Source: Natribaculum luteum (GTDB lineage Archaea > Halobacteriota > Halobacteria > Halobacteriales > Natrialbaceae). Taken from it: DNA of 64,000 bases. Within the stretch, counting starts at the first letter, position 1, and each line of letters begins with the position of its first letter. Both the position numbers and the translations under genes were made by a program. Below, one piece after another: positions 28,756-42,250 of this stretch. Under the pieces are notes generated by a model. It ran no database searches. It was not told the origin of the DNA and saw only the letters and a program-made list of their open reading frames with translations. The stretch is taken from assembly GCF_023008545.1 (NCBI RefSeq), contig NZ_CP095397.1, positions 2,294,001 to 2,358,000 on the forward strand. Direction: 5' to 3'.

Positions 28756-30438
28756 ATGGTACGAGACAACAAACAGGTCGAGTCCGGTCTCGACCGACGA
28801 CGCATCCTTCAGGGAATTGGTGCCGCCGGTGCGATGGCGGTCGCCGGCTGTCTCAGCGGAGACGGCGACGACAACGGCGACGGCAACGACAACGGCGATC
28901 AGGAACGCGCGATGCAGCTGCTCGAGGAAGGGTTCGAGGAGGAAGGCTTCGAACCGCCGTACGAGGCCGACCTCGTCACGAACGAGAACCCCGAGCGCGT
29001 CCAGTGGTCGCAAATCGTCCAGCAGGTCCTCGAGAACACGGGGTACTTCGACCTCGAACTGCAGCAGTACGAGTGGACGACCTACCAGGAGATCGTTCTC
29101 TCCGAGGAGTCCGCCGAAGAGAACCACCTCGCGGCACTCGGGTGGAGCGCCGGCTTCGACCCCGACGCCTACGTGAACTTCCTGCTACACTCTGACTTCC
29201 ATACGCCGTCGTGCTGTAACACGAACCACTACGCCAACGAGGAACTCGACTCTCTCATCGACGAGGGGAAGACGGAGACCGACCCCGAGGAGCGAGTCGC
29301 GATCTACGAGGAACTCCAGAACCTCGTCGCCCAGGAGTCGCCGCTCACTTTCGTCCGGTTCGGCGAGGAACTCATCGCCTACCGCGAAGAGGCCCTCGAC
29401 AACTGGACGGTCTCCCCCTTCGACAGCACGCGCTTCTCGACGATTTACAACGTCTACGCTGGCACGAGCATCTCGTTTGCCGACCCCGATGGGGACGGTG
29501 AACTCAAGGCTTCCGTCGGTGCCAACATCGCGAACTTCGACCCCACCCAGCAGAACGACACGACGTCCACCCAGGCGACCGTCCCCCTCATCTACGAGGG
29601 GCTGGTCGGCTCGGACTACAGCGGCGAACCTCAGCCGTGGCTCGCAGAAGACTGGGAGCAACAGGACGACACCACGTACACCTTCTACCTCAGAGAGGGC
29701 GTCCAGTTCCACAACGGCGAGGAGCTGACGGCCGACCACGTCAAAGCCTCGATGGAGCGATACAAGGGGACGCCGCGCGAGGCCGACGTCTACGACTGGC
29801 TCGGCGAGGACGGCGAGATCAGAGTCGTCGACGACTACGAACTCGAGATCGAACTCTCCGAACCCTACGCGCCGTTCCTGCTCAACGTCGGCAACGCGCT
29901 CATCGTCCCGATGGCCGGCATCGAGGAGGAGTACGGCGGCGAGGGTGCCGTCGACCTGCAGGAGGAGCCGATCGGCACTGGCCCGTACATGCACGAGGAG
30001 TACCAGCCCGACGAACTCTACCGGGTCTCGCGCAACGACGACTACTGGGGTCAGGAGCTCATGGACAGCGCGCCGGAACCGGATACGATCCAGTTCCGCG
30101 TCATCGTCGAGTCCTCCGTCCGACAGAGCGCCCTCGAGGCGGGCGACATTCACGTCGTGAGTCCGCCCCCGGCGTCGTTCCAGGACCTGGACGACAGCGA
30201 CGAGATCGTAGCAAAGAGTACGACGAGTGGCGGCTTCGACATGCTCATTCCCCCGGTCCAGCACGAGCCGTTCACTAACGCGAAGGTGCGCCGTGCACTC
30301 GCCCTCCTGATCCCGCGCCAGCAGATCATCGACACCGTCTACAACGGTATCGGTGTCCCGGCGTACGGGCCGATCTCGCCCGTCGCCAAGCGATTCGCGC
30401 TCGACAACGAGGAACTCATCGACGTCCTCGAAGGATAG
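28756..30438 (+). CDS. Peptide-type ABC transporter substrate-binding lipoprotein, circularly permuted
   Basis: This 560-residue SBP_bac_5-family protein captures solute outside the cell and delivers it to the permeases encoded downstream. Tat/lipobox signal: DRRRILQGIGAAG with Cys32 in AVAGC, then a Gly/Asp/Asn linker. Order is unusual. Residues about 52-234 (from ERAMQLLEE, through QIVQQVLENTGYFDLELQQ, to VSPFDSTRF) match the canonical C-terminal part. Residues about 240-560 match the canonical N-terminal and middle parts (GANIANFDPTQ, FYLREGVQFHNGEELTADHV, IGTGPYMHEEYQ, FTNAKVRRALALLIPRQQII). The protein ends LIDVLEG, where the canonical chain would continue into ERAMQLL. Confidence 0.9.
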   Translation: MVRDNKQVESGLDRRRILQGIGAAGAMAVAGCLSGDGDDNGDGNDNGDQERAMQLLEEGFEEEGFEPPYEADLVTNENPERVQWSQIVQQVLENTGYFDLELQQYEWTTYQEIVLSEESAEENHLAALGWSAGFDPDAYVNFLLHSDFHTPSCCNTNHYANEELDSLIDEGKTETDPEERVAIYEELQNLVAQESPLTFVRFGEELIAYREEALDNWTVSPFDSTRFSTIYNVYAGTSISFADPDGDGELKASVGANIANFDPTQQNDTTSTQATVPLIYEGLVGSDYSGEPQPWLAEDWEQQDDTTYTFYLREGVQFHNGEELTADHVKASMERYKGTPREADVYDWLGEDGEIRVVDDYELEIELSEPYAPFLLNVGNALIVPMAGIEEEYGGEGAVDLQEEPIGTGPYMHEEYQPDELYRVSRNDDYWGQELMDSAPEPDTIQFRVIVESSVRQSALEAGDIHVVSPPPASFQDLDDSDEIVAKSTTSGGFDMLIPPVQHEPFTNAKVRRALALLIPRQQIIDTVYNGIGVPAYGPISPVAKRFALDNEELIDVLEG

Positions 30439-30478: not shown

Positions 30479-31426
30479 ATGAGCCTTTCACGGTACATTG
30501 TCAAACGTATCCTCGTCTCTATCCCCGTCTTGATCGGGGTAACGATGGTTTCGTTCGGGCTGGTACAGCTGATCCCGGGTGATCCGATCGAGTTCATACT
30601 CCAGTTTACGAACGTCTCACCCGAGGCCGAACAACGACTGTACGCCAAGTACAACCTCAACGAGCCCATCTGGAAACAGTATCTACTGTGGCTTCAGGAC
30701 GTACTGGTCCTGGACTTCGGCGAGTCTATCATCTCGGGCCGTGACGTCGCCTACGAGATCAGCACGCGACTCGATCACACGATCGCGCTCGGTCTCTTCT
30801 CGTGGCTGATCGGTCTGGGTGTCGGCATTCCGACCGGCATCATCGCCGCAGTCAAGCGCGGAACCATCACCGACGAGGTCAGTCGTATCGCCGCCCTGCT
30901 GGGAATCGCGACGCCGAACTTCTGGCTCGGCCTGATGTTGATCCTCGTTCTCAGTGTCAATCTCGGGCTCTTCCGGGCAATTCCGCCGGACGCCCCGCTG
31001 TGGAGCGCAGAGAAACTGAAGTTCCTCATCTTGCCCTCCGTGACCATCGGGACCGCATCCGCGTCGCTCATCATGCGTCTCGTCCGGTCGTCGATGCTCC
31101 AGGAACTCAACAAGGAGTACGTTCGGATGGCACGCGCGAAGGGGCTGAGCGAACGAACGGTCATCTTCAAGCACGTCCTTCGTAACTCGATGATCGCTGT
31201 CGTCACCGTCGCGGCGATCCAGATCGCGTTCATCATCAACGGGTCGGTCGTCATCGAGCAGGTCTTCTCGTGGCCTGGCCTCGGACGGCTTCTCGTCAGG
31301 TCTATCAGTCAGCGCGACTTCCCGATCATTCAGGCAGGCGTGTTGATGACCGGCGTCGCGATCGTGATCGCGAACCTGTTAGCCGACATCGTCTACTCGT
31401 GGCTCGATCCACGGATCCGCTACTAA
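30479..31426 (+). CDS. dppB: Dipeptide-type ABC transporter permease, DppB family
   Basis: This 315-residue membrane protein with about six TM segments. N-terminal family motif RYIVKRILVSIPVLIGVTMV and LIPGDPIEF. The EAA-type loop is EYVRMARAKGLSERTVIFKH (about 218-237). It forms the channel with the DppC product. It lies 40 bases after the SBP gene in the same operon. Confidence 0.94.
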   Translation: MSLSRYIVKRILVSIPVLIGVTMVSFGLVQLIPGDPIEFILQFTNVSPEAEQRLYAKYNLNEPIWKQYLLWLQDVLVLDFGESIISGRDVAYEISTRLDHTIALGLFSWLIGLGVGIPTGIIAAVKRGTITDEVSRIAALLGIATPNFWLGLMLILVLSVNLGLFRAIPPDAPLWSAEKLKFLILPSVTIGTASASLIMRLVRSSMLQELNKEYVRMARAKGLSERTVIFKHVLRNSMIAVVTVAAIQIAFIINGSVVIEQVFSWPGLGRLLVRSISQRDFPIIQAGVLMTGVAIVIANLLADIVYSWLDPRIRY

Positions 31427-31428
31427 GA

Positions 31429-32466
31429 ATGAAGCAGAAACAACGAGACACGACGACGCAGCGTGGTCGAATCCGAATTACTGGATTCGACGCCGAACGA
31501 GTGCGCAACCGGGAACCGATCTCGGGCTGGACCGAGACCGAATCCGACGGCGGCACCAGTCGGATGGAGTACGCCTGGCGACGATTCAAGAGCAATCGCC
31601 TCGCGATGCTCAGCGTCGGCGTCATGGCACTCATGGCCATCGTCGCCGTCCTCGCACGGCCGATCTCCGTCGACGTCGCCGGCATGTCGCTTACGGTACA
31701 GCCGTTCGCACTCACGCCGTACGGGCCCGGCGAGATGTTCGTCGGATCGCCACACGCAGCCCCGAGCGCCGAACACCTGATGGGGACCGACTGGTCGGGA
31801 CGGGACCTGTTCTCGCGCGTGCTCGTCGGGACCCGGTACAGCCTCTCGATCGGGCTGATCGCGACCGTACTTGCCCTGTTCGTCGGGATTCCACTCGGCT
31901 CGATCGCCGGCTACTTTGGCGGCTGGATCGACGAGGCGATCATGCGTCTCGTCGACGTTCTCTACGCGTTCCCGTTTCTCGTCCTCGCCATCGCGATCAT
32001 CGCGGTGCTCGGCCAGGGGTTCTGGAACCTGATCCTGGCGCTGACGATCACCGGGTGGATCAGCTACGCCCGTCTCATCCGCGGTGAGGTACTGAGCGTG
32101 AAAGAAAACGAGTACGTACTCGCGGCGAAAGCGCTCGGCGCGACCGATCGCTCGATCATCTTCCGTCACGTCGTCCCGAACGCGATGGCCCCGGTCATCG
32201 TCCAGGCGACGCTGTCGATCGGTACCGTCGTCCTCTCTGCGGCCGCGCTTGGCTTCCTCGGACTCGGTCTCACGCCGGGCACCCCCGAGTGGGGGACGAT
32301 GCTCTCGAGCACTCGCGACACCATCGCTCAGGGCTACTGGTGGGTGTCTGTCTTCCCCGGCCTGGCCATCGTCGTGTTCGTGCTCGCTATCAACCTGATG
32401 GGTGACGGGATCAACGACGCACTCGACCCACAGGGAGACACCGCAACGAAACAGAGGATGCAATAG
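31429..32466 (+). CDS. dppC: Dipeptide-type ABC transporter permease, DppC family
   Basis: This 345-residue permease has a polar N-terminal extension of about 45 residues (possible inner start at MEYAWRRF). First TM at about 59-76, then the LMGTDWSGRDLFSRVLVGTR motif. The EAA loop is EYVLAAKALGATDRSIIFRH (about 225-244). It lies two bases after dppB and directly abuts the ATPase gene, consistent with one operon. Confidence 0.93.
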   Translation: MKQKQRDTTTQRGRIRITGFDAERVRNREPISGWTETESDGGTSRMEYAWRRFKSNRLAMLSVGVMALMAIVAVLARPISVDVAGMSLTVQPFALTPYGPGEMFVGSPHAAPSAEHLMGTDWSGRDLFSRVLVGTRYSLSIGLIATVLALFVGIPLGSIAGYFGGWIDEAIMRLVDVLYAFPFLVLAIAIIAVLGQGFWNLILALTITGWISYARLIRGEVLSVKENEYVLAAKALGATDRSIIFRHVVPNAMAPVIVQATLSIGTVVLSAAALGFLGLGLTPGTPEWGTMLSSTRDTIAQGYWWVSVFPGLAIVVFVLAINLMGDGINDALDPQGDTATKQRMQ

Positions 32467-33516
32467 ATGGCACTACTCGAAGTCAACGATCTAGTTACGC
32501 AGTTCTACACTGAGGACGGAACCGTTCGCGCGGTCGACGGCGTGAGCTATCAGATCGACCGCGGTGAAAAGTTCGGCGTCGTCGGCGAGAGCGGTGCCGG
32601 CAAGAGCGTGACGAGCCTGTCGGTCATGGGCCTCATCGAGAGCCCCGGTGAGATCGTCGGCGGGGAGATCCTCTTCAAAGGGGAGAACCTCCTCGAGAAG
32701 AGTCCCGAAGAGATGCGCCGCATCCGCGGCAACGAGATCGCCATGGTGTTCCAGGACGCCGAGACGGCTCTCAACCCCGTCTACACGGTCGGCGAGCAGA
32801 TCGCCGAGGGGATCCGCACGCACAAGGACGTCTCGGACGAGGAGGCCAAAGAGCAGGCGATCGAGATGCTCGCGAAGGTCGGCATCCCCGACCCGGCAGA
32901 GCGCTACAGCGATTACCCCCACCAGTTCTCCGGTGGGATGCAACAGCGTGCGGTCATCGCGATCGCACTCTCCTGTGATCCCGACCTGCTCATCTGTGAC
33001 GAGCCCACGACGGCACTCGACGTCACGATCGAGGCGCAGATCCTCGAGTTGCTCGACGAACTGGCGTCGGACTTCGATACGGCGATCCAGCTCATCACGC
33101 ACGACCTCGGCGTCGTCGCCGAGATCTGCAACCGCGTGATGGTGATGTACGCCGGCAAGGCCGTCGAGAAAGCGCCCGTCGAGGACCTCTACTACCAGCC
33201 CAAACACCCCTACTCGGTCGGCCTGATGGGGTCGATCCCGCGCATCGGCGACAGGCGCGACCGCCTCGAGACGATTCCGGGGACGATGCCCGACCTCGTC
33301 GAAGTGCCGCCAGGCTGTAGTTTCCACCCGCGGTGTCCGTACGCCGAGGAGGCCTGCAGTCGGAAAGAGCCGCAACTCGTCGACGTCGAGACCGGGGAGC
33401 CGTCGAACCCGAACGACGACGGCGAACACGCCGCCGCGTGTCTGGCCTATACGGGCGACCTCGAGGACGAACTGTCCTACCAGGTCGAAGTACTGACGGA
33501 GGAGACCTATGAGTAG
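32467..33516 (+). CDS. dppD: Dipeptide-type ABC transporter ATPase, DppD family
   Basis: This 349-residue ATPase. Walker A GESGAGKS (about 39-46), Q-loop VFQDAETALNP, signature [12 protein letters not shown], Walker [14 protein letters not shown]-loop [10 protein letters not shown]-terminal oligopeptide/dipeptide domain with cysteines GCSFHPRCPYAEEAC and a later AAC. It pairs with the next gene, which it overlaps by 8 bases. Confidence 0.95.
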   Translation: MALLEVNDLVTQFYTEDGTVRAVDGVSYQIDRGEKFGVVGESGAGKSVTSLSVMGLIESPGEIVGGEILFKGENLLEKSPEEMRRIRGNEIAMVFQDAETALNPVYTVGEQIAEGIRTHKDVSDEEAKEQAIEMLAKVGIPDPAERYSDYPHQFSGGMQQRAVIAIALSCDPDLLICDEPTTALDVTIEAQILELLDELASDFDTAIQLITHDLGVVAEICNRVMVMYAGKAVEKAPVEDLYYQPKHPYSVGLMGSIPRIGDRRDRLETIPGTMPDLVEVPPGCSFHPRCPYAEEACSRKEPQLVDVETGEPSNPNDDGEHAAACLAYTGDLEDELSYQVEVLTEETYE

Positions 33517-34513
33517 CCAACCGCTCGTTCAGGCAGACGAACTGACGAAGTACTACAGCAACGCCGACGGTTTCCTCGACCGGATGCTCGGCAATCAGTC
33601 GCAGGTTCGCGCCGTCGACGGCGTCGACCTCGAGGTCCGCGAGGGCGAGACACTCGGTCTGGTCGGCGAATCCGGCTGCGGGAAGAGTACGCTCGGTCGC
33701 ACGCTCCTCCAGCTCGAAGAGCCCACGGACGGACACGTCTACTTCAAAGGCGAAGACATCACGGACCTGTCGGGATCGGCGCTCCGGAAGAAGCGCCGGG
33801 AGATGCAGTATATCTTCCAGAACCCCTTCGCCAGTCTGAACCCCCGACTGACGATCAACGACATCGTCGGCGAAGCGCTCGACGTTCACGGCATCGCCGA
33901 CGGCGAAGAACGGGACGCCCGAATCGCGGAGATCCTCGACACGGTCGGCCTGAAGTCGAGCCACGCCAACCGTTACCCACACGAGTTCTCCGGCGGCCAG
34001 CGCCAGCGGATCGGCATCGCCCGCGCGCTCGCGGTCGACCCCGACTTCGTCGTCTGTGACGAGCCGGTCTCCGCGCTCGACGTCTCGGTGCAGGCACAGA
34101 TCCTCAACCTGCTCGAGGATCTACAGAGCGACCTCGGCCTCTCGTATCTGTTCATCGCTCACGACCTCTCGGTCGTCGAGCACATCGCCGACCGCATCGC
34201 TGTCATGTACCTCGGCGAGATCGTCGAGGTCGGGACGGCAGAAGAGATCTTCAGCCCGCCGTACCACCCGTACACGCACGCGCTGCTGTCTGCGATCCCG
34301 GAACCCGACCCGCTCTGGAAAGGCGACCGCGTCATCCTCGAGGGATCGGTGCCGTCGCCACTCGATCCGCCCAGCGGCTGTAAGTTCCATACCCGCTGTC
34401 CTATCGCCCAGGACGACTGCGGCGAGTGGGAGGACCACCCGGACCTCGAGTCCGTCGGCGGCTCCCACAAGATCGCGTGCCCGTACCACGAGATGATCGA
34501 CACCGAGGTCTGA
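33509..34513 (+). CDS. dppF: Dipeptide-type ABC transporter ATPase, DppF family
   Basis: This 334-residue ATPase. Walker [12 protein letters not shown], signature [15 protein letters not shown], Walker [17 protein letters not shown]-loop [10 protein letters not shown]. The C-terminal [14 protein letters not shown] cysteine region is intact and ends in KIACPYH. It is the last gene of the first importer operon. Confidence 0.95.
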
Positions 34514-35312: not shown

Positions 35313-36650
35313 TTACTCCGTCAATCGGAGTTCGTCGGGTTCCACGTGGGCGTCGTCGAGCAGATGACAAGCAGCCTCCTGTTCGGTGCCACAGCCCTCG
35401 AGTTCCGGTTTCTCGCGTTCACAGACGGTCGTGAATTCCTCCACGAGGTGTGCGTTCGCGCGTTCGTGGTCGCCGTCGACGAGCGCATCGAGTGCGTCGT
35501 CGAGCGTCGCTTCGGCACGCGGATCGTCCAGCCGAACGGGGACGTCGTACTCGGACCGAATCCACCGTTTGAGATCCGCGTCGTCGACCCTTTCCGGCGA
35601 CGGGTCCTCGAGGTCCCCGTATTTGCCGTCCGATTCCAGGACACCAACCTCGGCGATGCTCTCTACGTCGATCGACTCGCGCTCGACCTGTTTGCGAAAG
35701 GTGAGGACGGATCGCCAGGTCTCCTGTGGCAGATCGATCCCCGACGGCGGGATCACCTCCGGACAGCGCGTGTGGAACTTACAGCCACTCGGCGGATCCG
35801 ACGGATCCGGGACGTCGCCTTTGAGTTCGACGCCGAGGCCCCGGTCCGTCGGATCGGGCGTCGGGATGGCGGACAGCAGCGCCCGCGTGTAGGGATGCTG
35901 TGGATTCGAGAACAGTTCCTCGGTCGGCCCGACTTCCACGAACTCGCCTAGGTACATCACCGCGACGCGGTCACACACCTGACGGACGACGCCCAGATCG
36001 TGACTGATGATGAGCACCGTCAGCCCCAGTTCTCGCTGGAACTTGTCGATGAGCCGGAGGATTTCCGCCTGGACAGAGACGTCGAGCGCCGACACGGGTT
36101 CGTCGGCGACGAGGAGTTTCGGGTTCACCGTGAGCGCTCGGGCCAGCCCGATCCGCTGTTTTTGGCCCCCGGAGAACTCGTGTGGATACCGCTTCATGTC
36201 CGCGGCCGAGAGGCCGACGCGCTCCAGGAGGTCGGCGACGATCTCCCGGCGTCGCTCGCGATCGGCCATCCCCTGGACGACGAGCGGTTCCGCGACGGCG
36301 TCGCCGACGTTCATCCGGGGGTCGAAACTCGAGTCCGGGTCCTGGAAGATCAACTGGACCTCTCGGCGAAACCGGCGGAGCTCCGCCGCGTCGTACTCGA
36401 GGACGTTTTCGCCCTCGAAACGGATTTCGCCGTCCGTCGGCTCCTCGAGGCGAACCATCGACGCCGCCGCGGTTGACTTGCCACAGCCGGATTCGCCGAC
36501 GATGCCGAACGTCTCGCCGCGCTCGAGTTCGAGACTGATTCCGTCGACTGCACGGGCCCGGCCGACTTCCGTGTTCAGTATCCCCTCGGTGATCGGATAG
36601 TGTTTTTTCAGCCCGCCGACGCGGAGCAGCGGATCGCCGGATCGACTCAT
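35313..36650 (-). CDS. dppF: Dipeptide-type ABC transporter ATPase, DppF family, with C-terminal insertion
   Basis: This 445-residue protein is about 110 longer than usual. Walker [13 protein letters not shown], signature FSGGQKQRIGLARAL, Walker [18 protein letters not shown]-loop ISHDLGVV. The C-terminal Cys motif is split: HTRCPEVIPP at about residue 293 is followed by a charged insertion of about 110 residues before VCEREKPELEGC. The other importer's ATPase has the same motif uninterrupted. It overlaps the upstream ATPase gene by ATGA and is last in its operon. Confidence 0.94.
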   Translation of the reverse strand: MSRSGDPLLRVGGLKKHYPITEGILNTEVGRARAVDGISLELERGETFGIVGESGCGKSTAAASMVRLEEPTDGEIRFEGENVLEYDAAELRRFRREVQLIFQDPDSSFDPRMNVGDAVAEPLVVQGMADRERRREIVADLLERVGLSAADMKRYPHEFSGGQKQRIGLARALTVNPKLLVADEPVSALDVSVQAEILRLIDKFQRELGLTVLIISHDLGVVRQVCDRVAVMYLGEFVEVGPTEELFSNPQHPYTRALLSAIPTPDPTDRGLGVELKGDVPDPSDPPSGCKFHTRCPEVIPPSGIDLPQETWRSVLTFRKQVERESIDVESIAEVGVLESDGKYGDLEDPSPERVDDADLKRWIRSEYDVPVRLDDPRAEATLDDALDALVDGDHERANAHLVEEFTTVCEREKPELEGCGTEQEAACHLLDDAHVEPDELRLTE

Positions 36651-37759
36651 CGCCGATCACCTCGCTCGAGGTCGTCGGTCGGAGACGGCGATCCAGCGGG
36701 TTCGGCGTCGGTGTTCAGGACGGTACTCGACTCTCGTCCCGGTTCGAAGTGAACGCAGGAGGTCGTGTGATCCGACGCGTCCCCGACCCGGTGCATCTCC
36801 GGCTGGTCGCCGGTTCGACAGGCGTCGATCGCGTGCGGACAGCGATCCGCGAACCGGCAGCCGGGCGGCGGCGACCGGGGATCCGGGAGTTCGCCGGGGA
36901 TGCCACCGATCCCGCCTCGCCCTGGGAGACAGTCGAGGAGCGCCCGGGTGTAAGGGTGGGCCGGCGTTTCGAAGACGTCCACGACCGACCCCTTCTCCAT
37001 GATCTTTCCGGCGTACATCACGGCCACGCGATCGGCGATTTCGGCGACGACGCCGAGATCGTGCGTGATGAATAACATCCCCATGTCCCGTTGCTCCTGG
37101 AGCTCTGCGAGTAGCTTCAGAATCTGAGCCTGGATCGTGACGTCCAGCGCCGTCGTCGGCTCGTCGGCGATCAACAGGTCCGGTTCGCAGGCCAGCGCGA
37201 TCGCGATAAGCACCCGCTGTTGCATCCCGCCGGAGAACTCGTGTGGGTAATCGTCGAGTCGGGAACTCGCCTCGGGAATCCCGACCTGCGTGAGTAACTC
37301 GACGGCGCGCTCGCGGGCCTCGGATTTGGACACGTCGGCATGGAGTTGAAGCGCTTCGCGGATCTGCCAGCCGATCGTGTACACCGGGTTCAGCGCACCC
37401 TGTGGGTTCTGGAAGATGTGGCTCACCTCGCCACCCCGGACGTGACGTAGTTCTTCGTCCGACAGATCGGAGATCTCCCGCCCGTTGATCTCGATCGAGC
37501 CCTCGGGAATGTAGCCGGGCGGGGACTTGAACAGCCGCGTGATCGCTTCGCTGGTGACGGTCTTTCCCGATCCGCTTTCGCCGACGATCGCGACAGTTTC
37601 GCCGGGTTCGACGGTCAGCGAGATCCCGTCGACTGCCCGCACGTCCTCGCTGTCCGTCCTGAAGTACGTATGGAGGTTCGAGATCTTCAGGAGAGGCTTA
37701 TCGTCCCGTTTGGTCGATACGTGTCGAGCGTCGGTCGTGTCGTCGTCTCGTGTACTCAT
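36647..37759 (-). CDS. dppD: Dipeptide-type ABC transporter ATPase, DppD family
   Basis: This 370-residue ATPase. Walker [15 protein letters not shown]-loop [12 protein letters not shown], signature [15 protein letters not shown], Walker [14 protein letters not shown]-loop [11 protein letters not shown]. The C-terminal [15 protein letters not shown] cysteine region is present. ATG 37759 is chosen because it overlaps the DppC stop (ATGA) and the longer frame is Arg-rich. It has a polar tail with no known function. Confidence 0.94.
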
Positions 37760-38991
37760 TCTCCACTCCCTCCGTGTCTCGGGTCGAGCGCGTCCCGGAG
37801 CGCGTCGCCGAGGAAGTTGAACGCGAGGATGGTGAAAAACAGGAATCCGCCCGGGATCGTCGAGATCCACCACGCGGTGCGGAGTTGATCGCGACCGTCC
37901 GCGATCAGCCGCCCCCACGACGGAACCGTGGGATCCCCGAGTCCGAGGAACGCGATCGCGGCCTCAGCCAGGATGATCGACGGAATCGTCAGCGTTGCGG
38001 CGGTGATGAGGCTGTTCGAGATGTTCGGCAGGAGGTGCCGGCGAATCGTCCAGAGACTCGATGCACCAGCGTTCTTCGCGGCCTGCATGTACGGCTCCTC
38101 GCGGCGCTGGAGCGCTTCCGAGCGCATGATTCGGGCGGACGACCCCCACCCGAACAGGCCGAAGATGAGGATGAGCACGAACAGGCTGCCGCCGATCGTG
38201 TACGCGAGCAACAGGAACAGGAAGAACGTTGGGAACGTCATCTGGATATCGACGTAGCGCATCAGCACCTCGTCGACGAGGCCGCCGTAGTAGGCGGCCG
38301 TCAGGCCGACCGCCGCAGCGACGGCGATGCTCATCAGCGTCGCGATCAGGCCGACCTGCATGCTCACCTCCATCCCGTAGATGCTCGACAGCAGGATGTC
38401 CTCGCCCGAGGAGGTCGTCCCGAGTGGATGTTGCCAGCTTCCCTGACACATCGTCACGCCGTCTACCGTCGTCATCCCGCCGGCACAGTTGGTCCCGGCG
38501 TTGTACGCTTCGATCGATCCCCAGACCGGCGGCTGATTCTCCAGCCCCGGCGTCGGTCCGGGTTCCGGAAGCACACGAGGACCGATCACACCGACCGCGA
38601 AGACGACGATCAGGTACAGCGCGCTGACGACTGCCGCTTTGTTTTTCTTGAACTCCTTCCAGTAGTAGCGGGTCATCCGCGGATTCTCGTACAGCGGGAC
38701 GACGCCGTAATACAGGAGGACGAGCAGCGTAAACGACCACAGCCAGTCGACCGGCGAGACCGGTCCCAGCACCGGAAACGCCGCCTGCCCGGTTTCGGCG
38801 ACGAATCGAGAGTACAGATCGTACGCCACCCCGATCGACCACAGGCTCACGACGGCGAGCCAGGCGACCCGCTTTCTCGATCGCGCCACGCCGTCGGCGT
38901 CGATCTCGTCCCAGTCGACCTGCTCGAAGGTCACGTCCCCAGGTGCGGTACCGCCGTCCGTCTTCGTCCGCGTATCCGTATCCTCGTCCAT
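37756..38991 (-). CDS. dppC: Dipeptide-type ABC transporter permease, DppC family
   Basis: This 411-residue permease is longer than its counterpart at 31429 because it has an extra N-terminal TM pair (about 45-110) and a Cys-containing external loop (NAGTNCAGG, GVTMCQGSW; a possible disulfide). Core motif HPLGTTSSGEDILLSSIYGM. The EAA-type loop EEPYMQAAKNAGASSLWTIR is present. It overlaps its neighbours by 1 and 4 bases. Confidence 0.93.
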   Translation of the reverse strand: MDEDTDTRTKTDGGTAPGDVTFEQVDWDEIDADGVARSRKRVAWLAVVSLWSIGVAYDLYSRFVAETGQAAFPVLGPVSPVDWLWSFTLLVLLYYGVVPLYENPRMTRYYWKEFKKNKAAVVSALYLIVVFAVGVIGPRVLPEPGPTPGLENQPPVWGSIEAYNAGTNCAGGMTTVDGVTMCQGSWQHPLGTTSSGEDILLSSIYGMEVSMQVGLIATLMSIAVAAAVGLTAAYYGGLVDEVLMRYVDIQMTFPTFFLFLLLAYTIGGSLFVLILIFGLFGWGSSARIMRSEALQRREEPYMQAAKNAGASSLWTIRRHLLPNISNSLITAATLTIPSIILAEAAIAFLGLGDPTVPSWGRLIADGRDQLRTAWWISTIPGGFLFFTILAFNFLGDALRDALDPRHGGSGE

Positions 38992-40055
38992 TAGCGATCA
39001 CCGTAGTCGATCCGCGGGTCGAGTACCGCGTACATGATGTCCTCGATCAGGTTGCCGACGATCGCGACGAACGTCGGCAGGAGGATCGTTATCGCGACCA
39101 GGTCAGTGTCCTGCCTGATGATTGCCTGGAACGACGCCAGCCCGATGCCGGGTATCCCGAACACCACCTCGATCAGGTACGAGCCGAACAGGACCAGTCC
39201 GAGGATCCGCCCGACGAGGATCGTCATCAACGGAATCGACGCTGGCCGGAAGATGTGCTTGGCGACGATCGCCCGGCTGCTGACGCCTTTCGACTTCGCG
39301 GTCTTGACGAAGTCGGCGTCGACGTACTCGAGTGCTTCCGCGCGCGCGTAGCGCATGACCGAGGCGATCGCGCCCGTCATCAGCACGAACGTCGGCAGGA
39401 TGAGCTGTTTGAGGTTCGCCGGACTGAGGATGCCGACGTAGCGCTCGCCCTCGAAATCCTGGCGGAAGAACGCCGGATGGTCGGAGCCAGCGGTCTCGAG
39501 TAGGGTCCAGCTTCCGTCCGCCGCCTTCGGGAGTGCAGCGTTCCAGCCGATGTCGACCCAGCCGAGCCACGATCCGAAGACGACGAGCAACACGATCCCG
39601 AACCAGAAGTTCGGAATGCTGATCCCGAAGAAGGCCGCGAACGTCGCCGCGTAGTCTTTCTTCGTGTACTGGTTGACCGCCGAGTAGAGCCCGATCGCAG
39701 TCCCGATGATCGTCGACAGGACGATCGCGGGAACCCCGTACAGCAGCGAGTACGGGACGGTTTCACGGACGACGTCGACGACCGGCTGGTCGTACTCGTA
39801 GGACCAGCCCCAGTCACCCTGGAAGACGTTCGTCATGAAGTCGACGTATCGTTCGTGGAACGGTCGATCCAGGCCGAGCCGTTCCCTCTCTGCCTGGACG
39901 GCCGTTTCGACGTCCACGTCGTTTATTGCCGCCTGGAACTCCGCCTGCATGAGCTGCTGGTTCGGAACCTGGTCCATCAGCACGAACGTGATCGTGAGGA
40001 TGAGAAACGACGCGAATGCGGCCCAGAGCACCCGGCGAATGACATACCATTTCAT
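38991..40055 (-). CDS. dppB: Dipeptide-type ABC transporter permease, DppB family
   Basis: This 354-residue membrane protein. N terminus WYVIRRVLWAAFASFLILTI, then a long external segment. Six or so TM helices. EAA loop DFVKTAKSKGVSSRAIVAKH (about 260-279). Its TAA shares one base with the start of the DppC gene. It lies 47 bases after the SBP gene. Confidence 0.93.
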   Translation of the reverse strand: MKWYVIRRVLWAAFASFLILTITFVLMDQVPNQQLMQAEFQAAINDVDVETAVQAERERLGLDRPFHERYVDFMTNVFQGDWGWSYEYDQPVVDVVRETVPYSLLYGVPAIVLSTIIGTAIGLYSAVNQYTKKDYAATFAAFFGISIPNFWFGIVLLVVFGSWLGWVDIGWNAALPKAADGSWTLLETAGSDHPAFFRQDFEGERYVGILSPANLKQLILPTFVLMTGAIASVMRYARAEALEYVDADFVKTAKSKGVSSRAIVAKHIFRPASIPLMTILVGRILGLVLFGSYLIEVVFGIPGIGLASFQAIIRQDTDLVAITILLPTFVAIVGNLIEDIMYAVLDPRIDYGDR

Positions 40056-40102: not shown

Positions 40103-42004
40103 TCAGACCTCTTCGAGCGTGAAGTTGTCGTTGTCGCGCAGGAGGTCACGCGCCGCGACGATGTCGTCTTCGGTGATGTCGATGCCGTAGACGTCGACCG
40201 CAGACTCGTCGTACCAGTCGGACCACGTCGGCTGGAAGGTGACCGCGGGGTCAGCCTGCCCGCGCCGGATGTCCTGGGTGATCGTCTCCTTGTCGACCAC
40301 GCGCGCGATGGCTTCCCGGCCGTCCCGCTCCCGAGTCAGGATGCTCCCGTTCGATCGCTGGTTGAAAAAGAGGAAGCTGATAAACGGGTCCTGCTGGTCT
40401 TCGACGCGGATCTCGTCGACGGCTTCCTGGAATTCCTGGACGTTCTCGCTCGGGAGTTCCATCCGGTCGGCCTCCGTGTTGCGGAACCGCTCGACGCGGG
40501 TCGACTGCTCGGCCTCGACGTCGAACTGGAACTGATCGAAGTAGGGCGCGTCCGCCCACGCGTCGTCCATGACCTGGACGTTGCTGTCGTCCGTGTGCTC
40601 GCGCATGTAGTAGTCGTCGTTGCGGACGGCTGTGAACGATCCCGTCTGTCCGGGCGTTCGATCTTCGAACGTGTACGCGCCGAGGTTGCCGGTCCAGGTG
40701 AACTCCTGTACCTCGTCGGACTGGCGAAGCGCCTCCGCGTCGGGCGCGTACTGCTCGTAGAGCGCTCGCGGGTAACAGTACTCGCTCCACAGGATCGGCC
40801 GGAGTGGGAACAGCGGGTCCGGTTCGACGAGTTCGATCTGGAACTCGAGTTCTCCGGTCTGTTCGACGTTCTCGACGTCCACCCACTCTTCAGGCTGGCC
40901 CGGCGGCAGATCCTCGTTCCACATGTCGGCCGCGTCGTCGGCCACGCCGTGGACGTTCTCGATCTGGAAGACCCAGTCTTCTGCGGTCATCTGGCCGTAC
41001 GGGTTGCCGTCCGCGTCGGTCCCAAACTCGAGGTTGTCCCGGAGGGTGCAGATCCACACCTCCCCGTCGCCGCTATCCTCGACGTCCATGAACAGCGGAA
41101 AGACCTCGTCGTTCGTGTCGACCGCGTAGGAGGTGTCGGAGATGAGGCCCGTCCTGTAACTCGAGTTGACGTCCTCCTGTTCGGGCAGGTACGCCTCGTT
41201 GAACTGATTGCCTGTCAGCCAGACGTAGTCGCCGCCGACAGTCTGGTCGTCGCGATATCGGTTGATCCAGTCGGGCGAGTAGCCGTAGAGGTTGAACTCG
41301 TCTGACGTGTTGATGCGCTCCTCGAACCCCCAGAATCGCAGCGACTCCGACATGAAGTTCGCCGGGAGTTCGTCGGTGAGCGCACCCATGATCTCGTTGA
41401 GGTACTCCTGCTGTTCCGCTTCCGTTTCGGCGTTCCGGAACTCCTCGTACAGACCCTTCATGTCGACTTCGGGAACGTAGCCGTAGGCGTTCGTCCCCGA
41501 GTCTTTCAGCCAGAACGTGTCGGTGTTCCCCGGGGTCCGCGGGTACGAGTTTGCGGCGATGCCATAGAGCATGTCCCAGTCGGAGACGGTCCGGGTTCGG
41601 TCCGGCGGACCAGCGTTGAACAGGCCCGGATTGTACTCGAAGTCCTCTGGATCCTCACCCGGCAGCGGTTCCGAACCGAAGTGGTCGCCGATGAGTTGCG
41701 TCTTGCCCTCGAGTTGCAGGTCGACGCCGATCTTCTCGAGGTCGCTCTGTATCTGGGACGCGATGTCCTGGTGGGTGTCGTCACCTTGATCGAAGAAAAT
41801 CGTCGGTGCGATCCGATCACCGTCCGGCCCGTACAGTTCGACTTCCGGAAGGTCCGCTGACGGATCGTTGTCGTCGTCCGGCTCGGATCCGAAACAGCCG
41901 GCGAGACCGGCGGCGGCACCGATACCGACCGTCTGGAGGACTCGTCGGCGGGAACTCGTCGCTTTCAGGTTCGCACGTTTGTCTCCCGTGAAACGGTTTG
42001 ACAT
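40103..42004 (-). CDS. Peptide-type ABC transporter substrate-binding lipoprotein, circularly permuted
   Basis: This 633-residue SBP_bac_5-family lipoprotein. Tat/lipobox SRRRVLQTVGIGAAAGLAGC with Cys37. The order is again permuted. Residues about 51-250 (VELYGPDGDRIAP, IASQIQSDLEKIGVDLQLEG, ADELPANF-like region, WGFEERI) match the canonical C-terminal part. Residues about 255-633 match the canonical N-terminal and middle parts (CTLRDNLEFGTDADG, MTAEDWVFQIENVHG, and the DGREAIARVVDKETITQDI segment before the end). The chain ends ARDLLRDNDNFTLEEV, which in a canonical protein would run into VELYGPDG. ATG 42004 is supported by the TATA box at 42031-42040. Confidence 0.9.
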   Translation of the reverse strand: MSNRFTGDKRANLKATSSRRRVLQTVGIGAAAGLAGCFGSEPDDDNDPSADLPEVELYGPDGDRIAPTIFFDQGDDTHQDIASQIQSDLEKIGVDLQLEGKTQLIGDHFGSEPLPGEDPEDFEYNPGLFNAGPPDRTRTVSDWDMLYGIAANSYPRTPGNTDTFWLKDSGTNAYGYVPEVDMKGLYEEFRNAETEAEQQEYLNEIMGALTDELPANFMSESLRFWGFEERINTSDEFNLYGYSPDWINRYRDDQTVGGDYVWLTGNQFNEAYLPEQEDVNSSYRTGLISDTSYAVDTNDEVFPLFMDVEDSGDGEVWICTLRDNLEFGTDADGNPYGQMTAEDWVFQIENVHGVADDAADMWNEDLPPGQPEEWVDVENVEQTGELEFQIELVEPDPLFPLRPILWSEYCYPRALYEQYAPDAEALRQSDEVQEFTWTGNLGAYTFEDRTPGQTGSFTAVRNDDYYMREHTDDSNVQVMDDAWADAPYFDQFQFDVEAEQSTRVERFRNTEADRMELPSENVQEFQEAVDEIRVEDQQDPFISFLFFNQRSNGSILTRERDGREAIARVVDKETITQDIRRGQADPAVTFQPTWSDWYDESAVDVYGIDITEDDIVAARDLLRDNDNFTLEEV

Positions 42005-42030
42005 GAAATACATTCTTTTATCATATACAC

Positions 42031-42040
42031 ATATATTTAC
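42031..42040 (-). promoter_or_regulatory. TATA box of the second Dpp operon
   Basis: Read on the minus strand, CCGGTAAATATATG has a BRE-like and TATA-like composition, with the TATA 27-36 bases before ATG 42004. This predicts a leaderless or very short-leader transcript. Confidence 0.5.
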
Positions 42041-42250
42041 CGGTAGACTATCCATAGAACCTAAATATTATCAGCAATACTATGGACTGGGAATTCGATA
42101 AGATGACCCGTCTCTGCCGTGTCACTGGACAATCGTCGAGCGTTCCTGGTCGGTGACCTCCGTTACTCGAGCCTCGCCCGGACGTCGACCCGCAGCGAAC
42201 CCCCAGTCTCCGACGAACTGCAATCATCCGGAGCCAGTGCTCGCAAATTT

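Follow-up and report, generated by a model that had tools for sequence, protein, structure and literature searches.

The gene at positions 28756-30438 (+) of the analyzed stretch of the Natribaculum luteum genome (64,000 nucleotides; hereafter, the window) raises the question of whether a substrate-binding protein (SBP) of an ABC importer can carry its two halves in swapped order, and, if so, how often and in what way such an order arose. The sequence-only reading of this region had taken the product, P0001 (560 aa, ATG start), for a circularly permuted Dpp/Opp-type SBP, with the canonical opening located only from about residue 240, chain ends whose joining would restore the canonical order, and a lipid anchor placed away from lobe I.

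P0001 matched the SBP_bac_5 family (PF00496) in Pfam with 254.9 bits (1.7e-75) against the curated cut-off of 32.4. The match consisted of two stretches, the best of which linked residues 291-548 with profile positions 1-255 of 368; the C-terminal third comes first in the chain, so the canonical N-to-C order of the family is absent. Each of the NCBIfam SBP models gave a partial best match, starting at about residue 250 or later, and DppA-family chains of the PDB were aligned to P0001 in swapped order, e.g., residues 257-543 to positions 53-332 of 5u4o and residues 62-208 to positions 356-497. A custom profile of 524 positions, constructed from 30 canonical haloarchaeal SBPs together with DppA, NikA, GsiB, and OppA, was then found along P0001 as positions 348-521 (96 bits) followed by positions 37-337 (260 bits), while the sequence rotated at the junction gave one match, to positions 38-521 (369 bits), with roughly the same total score. 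Moreover, residues 71-364 and 381-565 of the canonical haloarchaeal SBP L102 are each covered once by P0001, near-completely and with the order swapped. The gene is divided as follows:

28756..28851, + strand: Tat signal (RRR) and lipobox, ending with the lipidated Cys32 (read from the sequence; weak TAT_signal matches; signal positions of the custom profile matched)
28897..29448, + strand: C-part, i.e., the canonical last third, now first (profile 348-521, 96 bits; 88/185 residues identical to L102 381-565)
29449..29478, + strand: junction of the old C terminus with the old N terminus (gap between the two profile matches; linker length)
29479..30435, + strand: N-part, i.e., the canonical first two thirds, now last and ending at the domain III cut loop (profile 37-337, 260 bits; 153/304 residues identical to L102 71-364)

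As no single collinear match was obtained, the permutation is real, and chance is excluded because of these scores and the 38 further permuted homologues described below. The analysis thus showed that P0001 is a natural circular permutation of an SBP_bac_5 (cluster C) substrate-binding lipoprotein with the signal left in front. The proposed swap was therefore borne out, as was the restoration of the canonical order by joining the chain ends, and the start of the N-part, at about residue 242, is close to the position suggested earlier.

P0001 is encoded at the head of genes for a DppBCDF-type importer, and a second operon of this type lies on the opposite strand of the window:

30479..31426, + strand: DppB-type permease (65.7% identical to DppB of the canonical-SBP operons L223/L224)
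31429..32466, + strand: DppC-type permease (64% identical to L223/L224)
32467..33516, + strand: DppD-type ATPase (58-61% identical to L223/L224)
33509..34513, + strand: DppF-type ATPase (74-76% identical to L223/L224)
35313..36650, - strand: DppF-type ATPase of the second operon (ORF list; homology)
36647..37918, - strand: DppD-type ATPase of the second operon (ORF list; homology; the longest ORF probably extends upstream of the true start)
37756..38991, - strand: DppC-type permease of the second operon (ORF list; homology)
38991..40055, - strand: DppB-type permease of the second operon (ORF list; homology)
40103..42055, - strand: second SBP_bac_5-type SBP, also permuted (residues 83-248 correspond to profile 366-504, and residues 272-642 to profile 39-359)

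The Tat signal, the lipobox, and the linkage to the importer genes give P0001 the secretion, anchoring, and operon features of SBP_bac_5 proteins, and both canonical-SBP operons checked (L223 and L224) contain the same partners as its own operon. The second SBP (42055-40103), the permutation of which was overlooked in the earlier reading, heads the second dppBCDF-type operon and forms a long branch. Altogether, eight SBP_bac_5 genes were identified in the Natribaculum luteum genome, four permuted (the two of the window and a tandem pair at 3.64 Mb of contig C1) and four canonical, among which L014 is the more divergent one. The genes of the tandem pair (L013:9644-14112) are about 2.7 kb apart, and the same pair is present in genomes G001, G005, G009, and G012.

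Comparison of the window gene with two relatives gave a dN/dS of 0.20, which shows that it is under purifying selection; considering also the intact operon, P0001 is very probably a functional SBP. Most likely it would be a working binding protein of the ABC importer, tethered through lobe 2 instead of lobe 1, and we hold with high confidence that it is both a circular permutation and a working SBP. Escherichia coli DppA, OppA, NikA, and GsiB (SBP_bac_5, cluster C) belong to the same family by profile and have the same kind of operon partners, but their chain order is canonical, whereas P0001 is permuted. The assignment of P0001 as DppA itself was rejected, as the NCBIfam equivalog model gave 110 bits against a cut-off of 1005 and residues R383 and D436 are not conserved. 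These residues bind the peptide ends in DppA (PMC12136057); in the profile alignment, their columns hold a gap and Ala in P0001, and they are absent also from the canonical relatives L101 and L102, so the ligand is probably not a plain dipeptide. The AlphaFold model of P0001 had a mean pLDDT of 69.8 and a pTM of 0.69. The 50 best Foldseek matches of this model were cluster C SBPs, with about 240-265 columns, i.e., about half, aligned in chain order, a comparison to be read with caution, as the model of the canonical L126, based on few diverse sequences, had a pLDDT of 36.

To place P0001 among its relatives, the Natribaculum luteum genome and those of 20 relatives were surveyed, and 19 of these carried SBP_bac_5 genes. 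Within 16 of the 19, we confirmed 39 permuted SBPs, with canonical ones alongside, so that both forms of the protein, the survey of which had been suggested earlier, do occur in haloarchaea. The Tat RR motif was present in 38 of the 39 proteins, and the lipobox pattern likewise in 38. The permuted profile gave full-length matches throughout Halobacteria. Proteins of the P0001 type were found in Natrinema, Natrialba, Natrarchaeobius, Haloterrigena, Natronolimnohabitans, Salinadaptatus, and one Halobacteriales MAG. In genome G172 (L174; C5:155014-156547), a permuted gene of this type is split between two frames and is probably a broken copy.

It should be stressed that the sequence-only reading was silent on the recurrence of the permutation, on its wide spread, and on the existence of close orthologues with canonical order in operons of the same make-up. 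A class-wide search revealed canonical-order proteins with 44-53% identity to the N-part and 42-47% identity to the C-part of P0001. Two of them, L101 and L102 (genomes G120 and G042), resemble P0001 over both parts (about 50% identity) and are encoded in the same operon, with a 66% identical DppB, but have the canonical N-C order and a long linker following the lipobox. L102 is also 53-56% identical to the permuted L158; its canonical orthologue in genome G283 (L144; C37) is split into two frames. In another permuted/canonical pair, L025 and L181, the junction is seamless (cut 552|552), with 260/409 and 122/183 identical residues in the two parts.

A more similar pair was found in the archaeal family f18 (genomes of 1.2-2.6 Mb), in which four permuted SBPs were identified (L183 and L184-L186). 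L184-L186 are placed within canonical branches (L184 and L185 were included in the tree). L185 shares 280/321 and 136/163 residues (83-87%) with the canonical L195 of the same genus; residues 33-353 and 353-515 of L195 are each present once in L185, which accounts for all mature residues and leaves a seamless junction, and the DNAs form collinear blocks with about 79% identity. In sister genera of this family, a canonical SBP gene lies immediately upstream of dppB. Within genus g131, the SBP gene is gone from the dppBCDF locus in four canonical genomes (L216-L219), and in three permuted ones (L213, L214, and L215 of G494, G486, and G533, respectively) it adjoins dppB in divergent orientation; thus, relocation accompanied the permutation there. 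The remaining protein, L183 (L220:7730-9472, genome G553), is permuted, has no evident lipobox, and carries a hydrophobic, PGF-like, anchor-like C-terminal tail; with the tail in this position, any C-terminal anchor would likewise be joined to the cut loop.

Permuted SBPs are also present in Alphaproteobacteria, for which the bacterial survey covered plasmids only. Those of Nitratireductor and two Roseomonas plasmids were read directly, and those of Microvirga, Neorhizobium, Ketogulonicigenium, and Maritalea may be presumed from matches spanning nearly the whole permuted query. Mesorhizobium L256, suggested as permuted by one long tblastn piece, turned out to have the canonical chain order. 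The three proteins read directly fall inside the clade of the majority type of permuted SBPs (100/99). Furthermore, an M28 peptidase gene adjoins the permuted SBP operons L253, L254, and L255 of the Roseomonas and Nitratireductor plasmids and L258 of Haloprofundus. The simplest reading is a transfer between haloarchaea and these Alphaproteobacteria.

In DppA precursor numbering, the chain was opened at about 344-363 in the P0001 type (at about 344-355 in P0001 itself), at 367-373 in the L020 type, at 365-370 in the L184 type, and, with limits uncertain due to low identity, at 369-387 in L183 and 367-386 in the majority type. The cut precedes the ERAMQLL helix in the P0001 type and follows it in the other types. 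According to the domain boundaries reported for AliD (PMC11192437), lobe 1 comprises domains I and II and holds both termini, which in canonical SBPs lie in domain I, and lobe 2 is domain III; all the cuts map to domain III and lie no more than a few tens of residues apart. If five cuts were drawn uniformly over 480 positions, the probability of all landing in a stretch of 35 residues would be about 1e-4, which is a rough estimate, given the uncertain limits for L183 and the majority type and the fact that only some loops can be cut. The linker across the old termini has 15 aa in P0001 and 6-7 aa in f18. Since domain III is lobe 2, the lipid tether is expected to have moved, and that of P0001 would be located on lobe 2 instead of lobe 1, in agreement with the suggestion that the anchor lies away from lobe I.

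The number of origins was approached with trees of rotated sequences, from which the cut columns were excluded. In the tree of the P0001 supergroup, the L020-type sequences nest within a canonical subfamily of about 650 aa, and a single clade of all 26 permuted sequences was rejected by the AU test (p=3e-14), whereas one clade of the P0001 type alone was not (p=0.074). Canonical L101-L107 nest among the branches of this type, so the order may have reverted, or the chain may have been permuted repeatedly at one site; the trees of its N-part and C-part agree in the main. The majority type forms its own clade (99/99). Common clades were rejected for the P0001 type with the majority type (1.2e-5) and with the L020 type (1e-64), for the majority type with the L020 type (4.6e-5) and with f18 (7e-53), and for the two permuted types of f18 (7e-54), which means that L183 is an event separate from L184/L185. 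The second SBP of the window could not be distinguished from the majority type (p=0.374). One origin for all permuted forms is rejected by these tests, and we infer that permutation occurred independently at least five times in archaea.

Changes on the trees alone do not separate gains from reversals, and neither does parsimony alone; with all cuts in one region, it might thus be argued that a single ancient permutation gave rise to all permuted SBPs and that the nested canonical forms are reversals. We consider this very improbable, given the rejected common clades of the P0001-, L020-, and majority-type sequences and of the two f18 types, and the differences in the exact cuts with respect to the ERAMQLL helix. 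In f18, moreover, canonical outgroups already root the permuted lineage separately, and the L184-type sequences lie inside successive canonical branches and are as similar to a canonical orthologue as stated above. The nesting among canonical sequences suggests instead that each lineage represents a separate gain, and it does so most strongly for the L184 type.

As to the route, we regard it as fairly probable that the mature part was duplicated in tandem and in frame, by which signal-N-C (S-N-C) would become S-N-C-N-C, and that the leading N and the trailing C were then lost, which would leave S-C-N. Both native termini should be close together in domain I, so the fold could be closed by a short linker, and the permuted protein would still be a Venus-flytrap receptor of the importer, its lipid tether now on lobe 2 instead of lobe 1. 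The signal (with the lipobox, where present) keeps the front position in the pairs that were examined, and duplication with trimming explains this order without a new signal. A protein of 1292 aa encoded in genome G015 (L225:4111-7989) consists of two complete canonical-order SBP units fused in frame as S-N-C-N-C, a topology that matches the expected intermediate; it belongs to a different subfamily and so shows feasibility, not ancestry. The f18 gene was also moved and flipped, and hence a one-step relocation is possible. The inversion of the permuted gene relative to dppB in three f18 genomes would likewise fit excision of the gene as a DNA circle and its reinsertion, opened elsewhere; however, a whole-gene circle would have put the signal inside, and the signal/lipobox coding part is still in front and homologous to the canonical one, which makes this route unlikely. 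Domain shuffling, in which segments of two different SBP genes were joined, might be read from the weak branches in which the N-part and C-part trees differ, but both parts of P0001 fall into one subfamily and share their canonical relatives, and both parts of the f18 proteins are 83-87% identical to one canonical protein; its likelihood is accordingly very small. Nothing was found in favor of an assembly or annotation artefact, a practically negligible explanation in view of the permuted order shared by dozens of independent genomes, some with contigs of millions of bases, and by bacterial plasmid records, as well as the open frames and the dN/dS value.

Compatible with the account of P0001 preferred here is the reading, concerning why rather than how, that the permutations are selectively neutral, i.e., that the loop tolerates new termini and tandem duplication supplies the variants. 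Most genomes have canonical forms next to permuted ones, the two serve similar operons, and L254 and similar alphaproteobacterial permuted SBPs have no lipobox in their sequence, so no anchor benefit would arise there; on the other hand, neutrality would need structural constraint alone to account for the recurrent cuts in one region and the long-lived majority clade. We find neutrality a fairly probable reading. Alternatively, the domain III loop may have been re-opened repeatedly since tethering of lobe 2 improves docking on or release from the permease. The C-terminal anchor-like tail of L183, which also ends on the domain III cut loop, is counted with this adaptive re-anchoring, which we put forward only tentatively, as doubtful.

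Natural circular permutations are known from other families (plant lectins, swaposins, and DNA methyltransferases), are usually explained by duplication and trimming, and, to our knowledge, are usually ancient and seen once per family. The rearrangement of the SBPs is of the same kind, but, unlike in those families, it was apparently repeated independently at one region, and the signal peptide stayed in front. Periplasmic binding proteins circularly permuted by engineering, for use as biosensors, demonstrate that SBP folds can tolerate new termini; those are laboratory constructs, while the SBPs described here are natural. None of the 60 best-matching solved chains was collinear with the permuted profile, and in the open-access literature we found no earlier report of circular permutation in SBP_bac_5, the sole co-mention being a table entry for the family. 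Natural circular permutation is a known kind of event, and its repeated, site-specific occurrence in SBP_bac_5 appears to be unreported.

For a large and well-studied transporter family, this would mean that the chain was permuted independently at least five times in one region, with permuted forms that appear to have reached some bacteria as well, which gives a rare natural series for studying protein rewiring. As one permutation, that of f18, is recent enough for the permuted and canonical orthologues to be 83-87% identical, the origin, folding, and fitness effects of the permutation are directly testable. The finding also bears on annotation, in which profile searches give partial matches and chain-order structure searches align only half of such proteins, and it raises the question of whether the position of the anchor on the SBP matters for transport.
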